Of a stretch of 15,981 nt of DNA, positions 9,819-15,133 are shown piece after piece (position 1 is the first letter of the stretch; the number at the start of each line of letters is the position of its first letter). This DNA comes from Desulfobacterales bacterium (GTDB lineage: Bacteria > Desulfobacterota > Desulfobacteria > Desulfobacterales > Desulfobacteraceae). The stretch lies in assembly GCA_022361135.1 (NCBI GenBank), contig JAKSBM010001053.1, positions 1-15,981 of the forward strand. The letters run 5' to 3'. The position numbers were made by a program, and so were the translations under genes. The notes under the pieces are model-generated. The model saw nothing but the letters and a program-made list of their open reading frames with translations, was not told the origin of the DNA and did not search any database.

Positions 9819-10025
9819 ATGGCAGAATTTACCCTGAAGGTTGAAAACATGAACTGCGGCCATTGCAGCGGCATGGTGGAAAAAACCCTGGCCGGCATCC
9901 CGGGCATCACCGATATCCAGGTGGATCTGGAGGGTAAAACCGCCCGGTTCAACGCCCCGGAGGAAGGGCTGGTGGACCAGGCCATGGACGCCGTCACCCA
10001 GGCCGGGTACCCCGCATCCAAATAG
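9819..10025 (+). CDS. Small heavy-metal-associated (HMA, CopZ-like) metal-binding protein
   Basis: A 68-residue single HMA domain. The metal-binding loop is MNCGHC at 11-16 (Cys13, Cys16), followed by a helix, and the rest fits the beta-alpha-beta-beta-alpha-beta fold. Such proteins carry Cu(I), or Hg(II) in MerP, to P-type ATPases or regulators. The absence of a signal peptide argues for a cytoplasmic CopZ-like role rather than periplasmic MerP. AAGGAG lies directly before the ATG with good spacing. It stands alone: no copper ATPase or CueR/CsoR regulator is in the window. The hgc operon begins 1.65 kb downstream, but on a separate transcript. Confidence 0.92.
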   Translation: MAEFTLKVENMNCGHCSGMVEKTLAGIPGITDIQVDLEGKTARFNAPEEGLVDQAMDAVTQAGYPASK

Positions 10026-10199: not shown

Positions 10200-11426
10200 T
10201 TAAATCAAACTGGAAAATTCAAAAACCTCGGACCGGTTCATGGTTTTGATGAATCGCCGCAGCAGCTCCCTGTCAAAGCAATGGGACATGCCCTTGTCCC
10301 GGAGCTGTATCCTTGCCTTCACCCGTTTCCGGGCCTCCTCCTCCAACATCTCCCGTTCCCGGAGCCGTTTCAGCTTGGCCTCGTAGTCGTCCCGGACCAC
10401 GGTGACCAACGGCACGCGACGATTTTCCTTGGCTTCGGCCTCGAACTTGTGCAGGGCATCCACATAGGGATTTTCCCCGGACATGATCCGAAGGGCCTCA
10501 AAGGGGGTCTTGGCCTTTTTGTAGGAACGGCGGGAGGTCAGGGCATCAAAGACGTCCACAATGTGACAAATCCGAGCCATCAATGGGATTTCCTCCCCCT
10601 TTAACCCACAGGGATACCCGCTTCCATCCTGGTTTTCATGGTGGTAGAGGATGATTTCCAAAAACTTCCGGGAAAGCTGGGTTTTAAAGAGCAGGCCGAT
10701 GGAATAGGCCGCATGGGATTGGATGAGCACATATTCCAGATTATTGAGTTTCCCGGGTTTATTGATGACGTTTTTGGGAATCTTGATCTTGCCGATGTCG
10801 TGGAAAAAGCCGGCGGCCGTGGCCTGGATGATCAATTTCCTCAGTTCCAGGGAATCCACCCCGGGGAAAAGGTCCCGGTTATTATTAATGAACAGGGCCA
10901 GAAGCCACCCCACCTTGATGGAATGGGTGTGGGTATCGTAGTCGTGGCCCACCAGCAGGGCCAGCCCCTGGATGGAATCCACGTCGGAGATAAAATCCAC
11001 CACCGTGGTGATGAATTGGGTGATGTTTTTCAACATGCCCTGGGCTTCCGCATCCCGGGTCAGGTCCACCCGGAAGGATTCCTGGATCAGATCACTGGCC
11101 GACACCACCAGTGCGCGGCTCTTGTGGCCGGGGGCCACCTGGTCGTGGTTCAGGATGAATTCAAGGTTCTCCTTCACATAATCGCGGTAGGCCCGGCGCT
11201 GGGCCGTGTGCATGTAAACCCGGTCCCAGGAGTGGAGCAATCGAACCAACCGATCCCGGGGAATGGATCGGGTGTCCTTGAGCAGGCAACGAAACCGATA
11301 TTGATTGCCCCTGTGGGGCTGCCGTTCGTAGAGGGCAAATCCGGCAAGATGGTCCGGATCAATGGATTTGGGATCAATGACAAAAAACAGACTGCCATCA
11401 TTAAAATACTCTGTTGCCAGAGCCAT
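10200..11426 (-). CDS. HD-GYP domain protein, probable cyclic-di-GMP phosphodiesterase
   Basis: A 408-residue soluble protein. Its HD-GYP domain (about 150-320) has all key motifs: HDIGK with His209-Asp210, HS at 168-169, HHENQDGSGYP at 262-272 and DVFDALTSRRSY at 291-302. The family hydrolyses c-di-GMP with a di- or tri-iron site. The first 145 residues form an N-terminal region I do not recognise, without a receiver or transmembrane segment. The C-terminus (about 325-408) is a charged helical extension. AAGGAG lies 10 bases before the ATG. It is a single gene, divergent from arsR-hgcAB, with a possible promoter at 11463-11491. Confidence 0.93.
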   Translation of the reverse strand: MALATEYFNDGSLFFVIDPKSIDPDHLAGFALYERQPHRGNQYRFRCLLKDTRSIPRDRLVRLLHSWDRVYMHTAQRRAYRDYVKENLEFILNHDQVAPGHKSRALVVSASDLIQESFRVDLTRDAEAQGMLKNITQFITTVVDFISDVDSIQGLALLVGHDYDTHTHSIKVGWLLALFINNNRDLFPGVDSLELRKLIIQATAAGFFHDIGKIKIPKNVINKPGKLNNLEYVLIQSHAAYSIGLLFKTQLSRKFLEIILYHHENQDGSGYPCGLKGEEIPLMARICHIVDVFDALTSRRSYKKAKTPFEALRIMSGENPYVDALHKFEAEAKENRRVPLVTVVRDDYEAKLKRLREREMLEEEARKRVKARIQLRDKGMSHCFDRELLRRFIKTMNRSEVFEFSSLI

Positions 11427-11680: not shown

Positions 11681-11977
11681 ATGAACAGAGTCAAATCAGA
11701 GATGCAATTGCCCCCGCCGGATGCCATGGCACGAATTTTCAAGGCATTGGGCCACCCCACCCGCCTGGCCATCATCGCCCACCTCATGGAGGTGGAAACC
11801 TGCTTTTGCAAGGATATTGTCCACCGATTCCCCTATTCCCAGTCCACCATCAGCCAACACCTGAAGCTCCTCAGGGAATCGGGGATCATCCAGGGGCAGA
11901 TCCTGGGGGCCAAATCCCAGTTCAGGGTGGACAGGGAAATGCTGGCCCGGTTAAAATCCTTTGTAACCCAATTGTAA
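11681..11977 (+). CDS. arsR: ArsR/SmtB-family metal(loid)-responsive regulator
   Basis: A 98-residue winged-helix repressor. The DNA-recognition region is SQSTISQHLKLLRESGII at 53-70, and LGHPTRLAIIAHL at 23-35 is the usual ArsR opening. The metal-sensing site is ETCFCKDI (Cys41, Cys43) in the alpha-3 position of ArsR's ELCVC motif, so As(III), Sb(III) or a thiophilic metal is a likely ligand; Hg(II) is possible but unproven. GAGGAG lies about 11 bases before the ATG. It is 23 bases upstream of hgcA and almost certainly co-transcribed. ArsR-like regulators next to hgcAB are known from other methylating Desulfobacterota. Confidence 0.95.
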   Translation: MNRVKSEMQLPPPDAMARIFKALGHPTRLAIIAHLMEVETCFCKDIVHRFPYSQSTISQHLKLLRESGIIQGQILGAKSQFRVDREMLARLKSFVTQL

Positions 11978-12000: not shown

Positions 12001-13185
12001 ATGAATTTTCCCATGGCCCCCCAAAACGGGGAAGACCGCCCCAAAGGCTTGTCCTCCAGCAATGTCCAGCTCATGCCCACCATGGCGGCGGCCCAGGCCG
12101 GAGGCTGCGCCCCCCCGCCGGACCCCATGGACGCCCACCAGCGTCCCGGATACACCCTCATGTCCTATGTGGCCGATTTCATTTCCACCCCGGCCGGACC
12201 GGTCCCCCGGGTCCATACCCGGAAAAACCGGGAGGATCATTGGGGCACCTTCCTGGCCCGCACCGGCATTGAACGCTACCATTACCGGGTGGTCCCGGGC
12301 CTATACGCCGTGGGCAGTCCCACGGACCAGTCCGAGGTCCTGGTCACGGCCAATTTCAAACTCACCTTTGACCAGGTCCGGGAGGCGATGGACGGCTACG
12401 ATGCCTGGATCCTGGTATTGGACACCAAGGGCATCAACGTCTGGTGCGCCGCCGGCAAGGGCACCTTTGCCACGGACGAATTGGTGGCACGGATCCGTGC
12501 CGCCAATCTGGACCAGGTGGTGGCCCACCGACGCCTCATTGTTCCCCAATTGGGGGCCACCGGGGTATCTGCCGGTGGGGTCAAAAAACAATCGGGATTC
12601 CGGGTGGTTTACGGCCCCATCCGCTGCACCGATCTGCCCGAATACCTGGACAACCAACGCAGGGCCACCCCGGAAATGCGGCAGATCACCTTCACCCTCT
12701 GGGAACGCTTCATCCTCACCCCGGTGGAGGTGCAAATCACCCTGAAACCGGCCCTGATCACCGCCCTGATCCTTTTCATCATTTCGGGCTTCGGACCGGG
12801 TTTCTTTTCATTTTCCGCCGCCCTGGTCCGGGGATTCACCGCCATGGGGGCCATGGCCGCAGGCATCCTGGCCGGAGCCGTGGCCGCCCCCGTTCTCCTC
12901 CCCCATATTCCGGTGAAGGAATTTGCCCTCAAGGGGATCATCACCGGCGGAGTGGCCGCCCTGGTACTCATCCTCCTGCTGCCCGCCGGGGCCGTGGGAA
13001 TGGCCGGGGCCCATGCCCTGCTCCTGTTCACCATCGCCATCTCTTCCTTCCTGGCCATGAACTTCACCGGCACCACCCCCTTTACCTCCCCCTCGGGTGT
13101 GGAAAAGGAAATGAAACGTTATATGCCCTTCCAACTGGTCAGTCTGGTACTGGCTGCTGGTTTGTGGATCTATGCCGCTTTTTAA
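12001..13185 (+). CDS. hgcA: Mercury methylation corrinoid protein HgcA
   Basis: Membrane corrinoid protein that transfers a methyl group to Hg(II), forming methylmercury with HgcB. The diagnostic cap-helix motif NVWCAAGKG is at 146-154, with Cys149 as the expected lower cobalt ligand. The soluble corrinoid domain spans about 50-245, and five hydrophobic segments follow at about 250-270, 278-301, 308-330, 335-357 and 377-394. At 394 residues it is longer than the Pseudodesulfovibrio mercurii ND132 protein (338, Cys93), because of about 55 extra N-terminal residues with a Pro-rich stretch and a Cys at 36. The start at 12001 has AAGGA 6 bases upstream. An open frame extends upstream inside arsR but lacks support. 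hgcB follows after 12 bases. Confidence 0.97.
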   Translation: MNFPMAPQNGEDRPKGLSSSNVQLMPTMAAAQAGGCAPPPDPMDAHQRPGYTLMSYVADFISTPAGPVPRVHTRKNREDHWGTFLARTGIERYHYRVVPGLYAVGSPTDQSEVLVTANFKLTFDQVREAMDGYDAWILVLDTKGINVWCAAGKGTFATDELVARIRAANLDQVVAHRRLIVPQLGATGVSAGGVKKQSGFRVVYGPIRCTDLPEYLDNQRRATPEMRQITFTLWERFILTPVEVQITLKPALITALILFIISGFGPGFFSFSAALVRGFTAMGAMAAGILAGAVAAPVLLPHIPVKEFALKGIITGGVAALVLILLLPAGAVGMAGAHALLLFTIAISSFLAMNFTGTTPFTSPSGVEKEMKRYMPFQLVSLVLAAGLWIYAAF

Positions 13186-13197
13186 AGGAGTAAAAAC

Positions 13198-13488
13198 ATG
13201 AAAGGATTTCGACACCTGGAAGATGTGGCCACCCTGGCCCTGGACCAGGATAAATGCATCGGTTGCACTCTCTGCACCCAGGTCTGCCCCCACCAGGTCC
13301 TGGAAATGCAGGATAAAAAGGCCGCCATTGTGGATTTCAACGCCTGCATGGAATGCGGGGCCTGCGTCAACAATTGCCCCACCCAGGCCATCAGCGTCAG
13401 CCCGGGGGTGGGCTGAGCCTCCTATATTATCCAGGTCTGGATAAAGGGAGAAGAAAACGCATCCTGCGGCAGCGGCGGCTGCTGCTGA
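13198..13488 (+). CDS. hgcB: Mercury methylation ferredoxin HgcB, predicted selenoprotein (Sec73 at TGA 13414-13416)
   Basis: Partner of HgcA that carries two [4Fe-4S] clusters, supplies electrons to the corrinoid and delivers Hg(II). Cluster ligands are Cys20, 23, 26, 30 (CIGCTLCTQVCP) and Cys50, 53, 56, 60 (CMECGACVNNCP). A TGA at 13414-13416 follows GVG at residue 72, exactly where ND132 HgcB has the essential Cys73. Reading through gives 23 more residues: ASYIIQVWIKGEEN, then ASCGSGGCC, ending in the vicinal Cys pair (95, 96) before TGA at 13486-13488. The total of 96 residues is family-typical. A SECIS-like hairpin follows the first TGA. If that TGA is a true stop, the product is a 72-residue form ending at 13416 without the Hg-binding tail. 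AAAGGAG precedes the ATG. Confidence 0.88.
13414..13450 (+). promoter_or_regulatory. Selenocysteine UGA codon and bacterial SECIS-like stem-loop
   Basis: After the TGA (13414-13416), an outer stem CTCCT/GGGAG (13419-13423 with 13446-13450, one G-U pair) and an inner perfect stem TTATCC/GGATAA (13427-13432 with 13439-13444) are separated by a small internal loop. They present the apical loop AGGTCT (13433-13438). The loop sequence is the same as in the E. coli fdhF SECIS, and begins 16 bases after the UGA compared with 17 there. SelB recognises this apical loop. The E. coli bulged U is not reproduced exactly. Confidence 0.85.
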
Positions 13489-13516
13489 TACCCAGAATCA
13501 TCCACGCCAATTTGCA

Positions 13517-13536
13517 CCGGGCCATCACCGGCCCGG
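13517..13536. other. GC-rich hairpin after hgcB
   Basis: CCGGGCC and GGCCCGG form a perfect 7-bp stem with a 6-base loop 28 bases after the hgcB stop. No T-run follows. It may be a 3' transcript-stabilising hairpin ahead of the terminator at 13554. Confidence 0.45.
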
Positions 13537-13553
13537 CGCCTTCCCAAAACCAA

Positions 13554-13588
13554 AAATCCCCCCGCCACACCAGGTGACGGGGGGATTT
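13554..13588. terminator. Terminator between convergent hgcB and the DUF3360 gene
   Basis: An 11-bp perfect stem (AAATCCCCCCG with CGGGGGGATTT) is followed by a modest T-rich stretch on the plus strand. On the minus strand it runs into TTTTTGGTTTT. It probably works in both directions. Confidence 0.8.
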
Positions 13589-13613
13589 CTGTTTCTAAGG
13601 GATGCCGGGAATT

Positions 13614-15071
13614 CTAACCGATCAAGGCGGGAATTCCAGGAATCATGCCCACGATGGCCATGGCGCCGGTGCTGACCAAAAAGGCCACCCCGGGAATGAC
13701 CAAACGGTCCATGTGGGTGAGCATCTTGGAGCGATCCCCGTCGCCGATGAGGCTGTTATTGTCCAGGAACATGGTCAATGCCCAGCCAAATACCGGATTC
13801 ACAAAGGCCGAGGAGAAGATGCAGATGCCGGCGGTCTGGCAATCCTTGGTCTCCTTGACCATGGCCATGCCCGCTTCCAGCAACGGCAGATACACCCCCA
13901 CCAACAATGCAATACTGAGGACGGGCCGCCACACGGCAATGTCCATGGGATATCCCAGGACCAGCACCAGGATACTGATGATACCCGTGAGGATGGCGCC
14001 CCCGGGGATGGGCCGTTTGGCAATGGCCGCCGGGATCATATAGGTGCCCCAGGAGGAGGTGATGCAGCCGGAACCAAATATGGCGCAAACCACCTGGCGC
14101 AGGGAACAGCCGATCATGGTGTCATCCACTTCCATGACCACATCCTTGGCCTTTTCCGGATAGTTCATCTCCTGGAAAATCCGGTGGCCCAGGAAATCCG
14201 GCGGCCACATGGCCACGGCCAAAATGGCAAAGGGAAGGGAAGCAATGAAATGGGAGACACTGGGTAGACCAATCTTCCACCCAGTGTCGGCGCCCCACCA
14301 GTAAAAGGGATTCAGGTTGGGCAGGCCCGGGCCGGTGGTGAACTCAAAGGGTGCACCCAGAACCAATGCCACCACAGCGGCCAGGAAAGAACAAAGGGGG
14401 ATGGCCAGCCAGCGCTTTTTAATCCGCGCCAGATAGGCGTAAAGGATGAGGTTGGTAAAAAGGACCAGGGTACCGATGTACCCCATCTCAATGCCCGTGG
14501 CCCAGGTCATCATGGCCGCGGCCTGGCCCAGGGTGCCCTTGGCCCCCAGGAAAACCAGAAGACCGCCGGCCACCCCGGCACTGGTGGCATTGATCAGCCG
14601 GGACCCTCCCTTGGTAATGCTGAGGATCACCCCGAAGAGGGCAATGAGAATGCCCAGGGCCAAGGGATGGGTTCCCGAGGCGGCCATGAGGGGAATCAAG
14701 GGCATCATTGGCCCGTGTATCCCGGGCAAATTGGCCCGGGGGTTAAAGGTGCCGGAGAAGAGAATCACAAAAAACAGGGACACCACCAACATGTCAACCC
14801 GGACATTTTCCACAATAAAGGCCGTGTCCAGTCCATAGACATCGGCAAAGGCCCGGGTCAAAGCCGAACACATGACCACCAGGCCAATGGTTCCGGCAAT
14901 GGCCGGAATAAAATCCTCCAGCTCAATGCGGTAATCCCGAAAGGGGAGGTTAATCCCCCACCGCTTGGGCTTCATAATGGACAATTCATTGTCCAGGTAC
15001 TCCGAACGCGATGCAAAGCTGCTGCTCTTCCGGTGCAGCTTATTGTAACGCGTCTTCTGCGACTCTTCCAT
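13614..15071 (-). CDS. DUF3360-family polytopic membrane protein (putative permease)
   Basis: A 485-residue inner-membrane protein with about 10-12 hydrophobic segments. The N-terminal cytoplasmic part (1-50) has the conserved SEYLDNELSIMKPKRW (23-38) and NLPFRDYR (41-48). Further conserved blocks are IHGPMMPLIPL (118-128), KRWLAIPLCSF (219-229), APFEFTTGPGLPNLNPFYWWG (240-260) and SSWGTYMIPAAIAKRPIPGG. These recall the DUF3360 family of uncharacterised permease-like proteins, remotely like sulfate or xanthine/uracil permeases. The substrate is unknown. The ATG at 15071 is preferred over a TTG one codon earlier, because GGAGGG is then 6 bases away. It has its own promoter (15134-15163). Confidence 0.85.
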   Translation of the reverse strand: MEESQKTRYNKLHRKSSSFASRSEYLDNELSIMKPKRWGINLPFRDYRIELEDFIPAIAGTIGLVVMCSALTRAFADVYGLDTAFIVENVRVDMLVVSLFFVILFSGTFNPRANLPGIHGPMMPLIPLMAASGTHPLALGILIALFGVILSITKGGSRLINATSAGVAGGLLVFLGAKGTLGQAAAMMTWATGIEMGYIGTLVLFTNLILYAYLARIKKRWLAIPLCSFLAAVVALVLGAPFEFTTGPGLPNLNPFYWWGADTGWKIGLPSVSHFIASLPFAILAVAMWPPDFLGHRIFQEMNYPEKAKDVVMEVDDTMIGCSLRQVVCAIFGSGCITSSWGTYMIPAAIAKRPIPGGAILTGIISILVLVLGYPMDIAVWRPVLSIALLVGVYLPLLEAGMAMVKETKDCQTAGICIFSSAFVNPVFGWALTMFLDNNSLIGDGDRSKMLTHMDRLVIPGVAFLVSTGAMAIVGMIPGIPALIG

Positions 15072-15133
15072 CAACTACCCTCCAAGAGATATTTCTTTTA
15101 ATAAAAGCCATTTAGCCTTTAAACAAGGTTCCG

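Follow-up and report, generated by a model that had tools for sequence, protein, structure and literature searches.

Does the in-frame TGA at codon 73 of hgcB end the gene, or does it encode selenocysteine (Sec)? The question matters because methylmercury is made by HgcAB, and the route by which Hg(II) reaches cobalamin is unsettled. In the window, by which we mean the whole 15,981-nucleotide stretch of DNA analyzed here, the hgcB open reading frame starts on the forward strand at an ATG at position 13198, preceded at 13186..13190 by an AGGAG that, as read from the sequence, is likely its ribosome-binding site. Standard translation gives 72 codons and then TGA at 13414-13416. With TGA read as U, the frame (13198..13488) encodes a 96-residue, ferredoxin-like HgcB that ends at a second TGA at 13486-13488. 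This protein carries two CxxCxxCxxxCP cluster motifs (C20/23/26/30-P31 and C50/53/56/60-P61) and a C-terminal Cys95-Cys96 pair encoded at 13480..13485. The predicted Sec73 lies within GVG-U-A (residues 70-74) and aligns with Cys73 of ordinary HgcB proteins. As for HgcB family members, the gene sits directly downstream of hgcA. The TGA at codon 73 and a frame that continues into an HgcB tail with a Cys pair and a second TGA had both been claimed in the initial annotation of this DNA, and both are borne out by translation.

The read-through protein, with U entered as C, matches the HgcB model NF040864 at 125.3 bits against a cut-off of 99, and the 72-residue product also passes, at 104.3 bits. 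This result bears on a further claim of the initial annotation, that a standard gene caller would truncate HgcB and hide it. Truncation does cost the protein its tail, and thereby both U73 and the Cys pair, but hiding is the exception, as six of seven 72-residue proteins tested passed the NCBIfam cut-off and only P0108 fell below it, at 97.6 bits. The best of five structure models of HgcB had a mean pLDDT of 68.5 and the other four 42.9-48.2, too weak for the placement of residue 73. Searched by sequence against solved structures, HgcB matched other ferredoxins, with none named HgcA or HgcB among the matches listed. A search of plasmid DNA with hgcB gave no match.

How widely is this TGA shared? 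A scan of genome contigs yielded at least 568 confirmed relatives, and we retained the best 80. The set was then enlarged with the window itself, with 30 loci that a search within one related family had found, and with 76 regions retrieved from genomes; of these regions, 58 came from the 115 match rows of a phylum search and the other 18 belong to additional members of the family. The resulting 187 loci contain 161 distinct hgcB sequences. Codon 73 is TGA followed by an in-frame tail in 60 of them, including the window, and Cys in the other 101; the TGA share is not a frequency, because the first 80 loci were picked by their likeness to the window's HgcB. In the related family, an HgcB match was found in 55 of 86 genomes, one per genome, and codon 73 was TGA in all 55. 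Since each of these genomes has a single HgcB match, a Cys copy was not seen in them. Sec73 is not confined to this family, because four Sec73 genomes (G010, G019, G020, and G029) are absent from its list. In a sample of 395 genomes from the phylum, within which the whole distribution was sampled, 111 had an HgcB match and three had a TGA inside it. One was the centre genome, with TGA at codon 73. The other two, G386 and G374, were rejected as Sec73 forms, as the TGA falls after the CC pair in G386 and within the tail in G374. A further 54 phylum match rows outside the fetched set were listed without internal stops.

Two individual loci have additional in-frame TGA codons. The G374 locus (L141) is a Cys73 form whose TGA lies in the Cys-rich HgcB tail (PPD-U-SDGCG) and is possibly another Sec position, judging from this one genome with a weak hairpin. 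A Sec73 form, L019/L106 of G017, has a second in-frame TGA at codon 91 (ASC-U-DSGCC), again in one genome and with a weak fold.

One alternative is the standard reading: TGA73 is a true stop, the product is a 72-residue two-cluster ferredoxin, and the tail is a relic. The 104.3-bit score of those 72 residues is in its favor. However, a relic would be expected to decay, whereas 60 distinct loci have kept the tail beyond TGA73, with the CC pair directly before a terminal codon (TGA, TAA or TAG) in 56 of them. The codon after the pair is TGA in 41 of the 60 Sec73 loci and TAA or TAG in 15, and the remaining 4 have altered tails. The same comparison led us to reject a second Sec codon at the end of the frame: TAA or TAG stands there in 15 of the 60 loci, and the TGA at 13486..13488 is most likely a plain stop.

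The RNA downstream of TGA73 also appears to be conserved for its own sake. A SECIS-like hairpin, which the initial annotation had described, is present in the fold of the window at 13419..13450 on the forward strand, beginning two bases past UGA73. It has a lower stem of five pairs, an upper stem of seven pairs (13427-13444), and an apical GGTC. Its folding energy of −13.7 kcal/mol corresponds to z = −1.90, with 10 of 200 shuffled sequences folding as well or better, and a longer 58-nt piece gave z = −0.71, with 41 of 200 shuffles at least equal. An Rfam search at a loose threshold returned 11 matches across 13138-13644, all under their gathering scores and none at the hairpin. By itself, the energy of the hairpin is weak evidence, and it is conservation that takes the hairpin beyond chance. 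The seven-pair upper stem is complete, in the same position relative to the TGA, in 60 of 60 Sec73 loci versus 1 of 101 Cys73 loci. Of the 60 Sec73 loci, 50 have AGGTCT as their six apical bases, 8 more have AGGTNT, one has AAGTTT, and one AGGGCT, so that departures from the GGT loop are limited to two loci (L183 and L184). The SECIS of Escherichia coli fdhF likewise has AGGTCT as its loop.

In the alignment of relatives, the upper stem is invariant and left no covariation to detect, and the lower stem paired in 75.9% of the cells of the covariation test, a weak signal. Codon constraint was therefore used as the test. We considered the 39 degenerate codons for amino acids that are conserved at 95% or more within the Sec73 set. 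Only three lack synonymous variation: Ile77 (ATT), Ile78 (ATC), and Ile82 (ATA), each unchanged across all 60 Sec73 loci, and these are the codons whose third bases pair in the upper stem. The loop codes for residue 80, which is Val in 59 of 60 Sec73 forms versus 8 of 101 Cys73 forms. Since Val80 is nearly fixed in the Sec forms and is coded by the loop, the RNA appears to dictate a residue of the protein. This codon-level constraint on hairpin bases, like the conserved tail, argues against a true stop at TGA73, which we regard as very improbable.

A second alternative accepts read-through but has UGA73 decoded as Cys, Trp, or some other residue, through a suppressor or a changed code. DNA cannot show which amino acid is inserted, and the 101 Cys73 loci do have Cys at this codon. 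Against this, TGA ends the frame behind the CC pair in 41 of the 60 Sec73 genes and so is not generally a sense codon, and simple suppression would have no use for a constrained hairpin. The machinery for Sec insertion also weighs against it. We searched for its components, using curated cut-offs, in 29 Sec73 genomes that are relatives of the window's organism. selB was found in 24, tRNA-Sec in 25, selA in 27, and selD in 27, and 22 genomes had all four. By comparison, 14 control genomes gave matches above cut-off for selB in 2, tRNA-Sec in 5, selA in 1, and selD in 2. At least one of the four components was missing from G004, G008, G010, G014, G017, G023, and G025, gaps that are likely due to incomplete assembly. 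The most extreme case is G008, in which a SelD fragment was the sole match above cut-off and selA, selB, and tRNA-Sec had none; this genome would fit a true stop at TGA73. The machinery does not tell Sec73 from Cys73 forms, because selB is equally common in both, being present in 20 of 21 Cys73 genomes in a search that took 50 of the best 80 loci. With these components in most Sec73 relatives, we give decoding as another residue only a slim chance. Least probable is a fault in sequencing or assembly at 13414-13416, or else a private nonsense mutation of a gene in decay: TGC and TGA do differ by one base, but the same TGA recurs in 59 other distinct loci, including loci whose contigs measure 4.96 and 6.04 Mb, which refutes error or private mutation as a general account.

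We thus consider it highly probable that hgcB encodes a 96-residue selenoprotein in which UGA73 is decoded as Sec by SelB, guided by the downstream hairpin. The relatives, in which TGA73, the in-frame tail, and the hairpin occur together in all 60 loci, along with the codon constraint, the hairpin itself, and the Sec machinery of related genomes, lend strong support to the Sec73 reading put forward in the initial annotation. We observed directly the frame, the extent to which relatives conserve it, and the constraint on the hairpin; insertion of Sec at position 73 by SelB is likely on this comparative evidence.

What partner does this protein have? The window's hgcA, which encodes the corrinoid partner, occupies 12001..13185 on the forward strand (from a putative start) and matches NF040863 at 436.1 bits against a cut-off of 275; the Cys codon of its NVWCAAG motif lies at 12445-12447. 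When HgcA was compared by sequence with solved structures, it matched chains of the corrinoid/iron-sulfur protein, and here too no entry among the matches listed bore the name HgcA or HgcB. We built a tree, by a quick search, from 147 rows of HgcA plus HgcB, leaving out codon 73 and the N-terminal part of HgcA. All 55 Sec73 rows group in a single clade (SH-aLRT 98) with one state change and no Cys73 row inside. With L141 as display root, the nearest outgroup row is L048, which combines Cys73 with a Cys-Cys pair in HgcA. On this tree, the predicted Sec73 form of HgcB has a single origin.

The N-terminus of HgcA holds a vicinal site that differs between these lineages. Outside the Sec73 clade it is Cys-Cys or Cys-Sec (for example, PCCGPP and PCUGPP), whereas the window's HgcA has a single Cys there (AGGCAPP). 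Cys-Sec (CU) HgcA was found in 37 distinct loci, in frame upstream of NVWCAAG (L045, L051, L055, L059, L069, L078, L121, and L128 among others), along with two Leu-Sec cases. In the predicted folds of all 37 CU loci, a candidate stem lies downstream of the HgcA TGA. An HgcA annotated from a later start codon would be without its N-terminal Sec.

Counts of Sec in the two partners were made over a narrower stretch in 146 resolved pairs, with 15 of the 161 loci unresolved and excluded and the Leu-Sec cases L142 and L149 scored as Sec; a broader count differs slightly. Sec occurs in the HgcA N-terminus in 39 of 91 Cys73 pairs, a figure that counts two with Leu-Sec, versus 0 of 55 Sec73 pairs, and in both HgcA and HgcB in 0 of 146. 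The HgcA site keeps its Cys-Cys or a Sec in 82 of 91 Cys73 pairs versus 9 of 55 Sec73 pairs. Fisher's test gives p = 7e-20 for this last contrast, but that value is no proof, because Sec73 arose once on the tree and the contrast is one event, not 146. Changes in the presence of the HgcA pair number nine within the Sec73 clade, over a summed branch length of 12.7, versus eight outside it, over 44.5, in a count that cannot separate loss from regain. These patterns suggest that the need for the HgcA pair may have been relaxed once HgcB carried Sec. They could reflect an either/or rule for selenium, in which Sec would sit in the vicinal site of HgcA or at HgcB position 73 but never in both, the two serving the same mercury-handling step, so that the HgcA pair would then become dispensable and be lost repeatedly. 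We offer this rule tentatively and rate its chances below even.

The surroundings of hgcAB show further differences. An ArsR/SmtB-type regulator gene lies upstream at 11681..11977 on the forward strand (NF033788, 68 bits, cut-off 55). Farther out are a small HMA/CopZ-like metal-binding protein at 9819-10025 and, on the reverse strand and divergent from arsR-hgcAB, an HD-domain (HD_5) protein at 10200-11426. Among the best 80 of at least 568 loci, whose flanks are of unequal extent, relatives of the ArsR protein occur near hgcAB in 23 of 36 Sec73 and 17 of 44 Cys73 loci, HMA/CopZ-like relatives in 11 of 36 and 0 of 44, and HD_5 relatives in nine Sec73 loci and one Cys73 locus. On the other side, a DUF3360 membrane protein (13614-15074, reverse strand; Pfam, 760 bits) converges with hgcB, and no relative of it is listed near hgcAB in the best 80 of at least 568 loci. 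Between the two convergent genes, a hairpin rich in G+C, with runs of A and T on its flanks (13555-13588), is likely their shared terminator; it was not among the entries of a separate scan of the window.

The predicted Sec would replace Cys73 at a site that follows the ferredoxin core with its two clusters and precedes the Cys pair at the C-terminus of HgcB. In this position its selenolate might bind Hg(II) and relay it between that pair and HgcA's cobalamin, to which the two [4Fe-4S] clusters of HgcB would pass electrons. This chemical role, as a relay ligand for Hg(II), is our inference. Stronger Hg binding and improved transfer, which the initial annotation raised as possible gains from Sec, are hypothetical. 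The Sec73 forms may be relevant in several ways. First, their clade, in which 55 of 55 tree rows keep Sec at a residue reported to be crucial, amounts to a natural experiment on the Hg(II) step. Second, the either/or pattern points to positions in HgcA and HgcB that may share one task. Third, the supply of selenium might limit methylation in bacteria with Sec73. Finally, there is a practical consequence, in that 72-residue gene calls omit both Sec73 and the Cys pair.

How do these findings relate to known systems? The statement in the initial annotation that a selenocysteine HgcB was undescribed is outdated. Table 1 of a 2026 review (PMC13188914) includes HgcB (NF040864, GVGU, WP_250697400.1) among predicted selenoproteins, tabulates HgcA likewise (NF040863, motif CU, WP_250697417.1), and cites Haft and Gwadz 2023 for the Sec forms of both. 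A 2024 PNAS paper (PMC11588087) mentions that certain homologues of hgcA and hgcB may encode selenoproteins, reports Cys73, Cys94, and Cys95 of HgcB as critical, and proposes electron delivery by the HgcB clusters. The either/or pattern was not found in the titles and abstract openings of the papers listed on hgcAB and selenium, but it may already be in print. What this analysis adds is the clade-wide fixation of Sec73 with a single origin, the codon-level constraint on the RNA, and the either/or pattern with HgcA.

Compared with the Sec form of HgcB tabulated in PMC13188914, the window's protein matches the same NF040864 model, has the same GVGU motif, and has Sec predicted in place of Cys73; as far as those table entries go, there is no difference in kind. 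The Sec form of HgcA (NF040863, CU) is similar in having a Sec within the HgcAB pair and a TGA followed by a stem, as folded in 37 loci, but its Sec is at the N-terminus and is seen only together with a Cys73 HgcB. Like the Cys73 HgcB of Pseudodesulfovibrio mercurii ND132 and its relatives, the window's HgcB has two CxxCxxCxxxCP motifs, a C-terminal Cys pair, and hgcA as its neighbor. Unlike them, it has TGA at codon 73, a constrained hairpin, and a fixed Val80. Overall, the window's HgcB adds one more well-supported member to a family of selenoproteins whose prediction had already been published.
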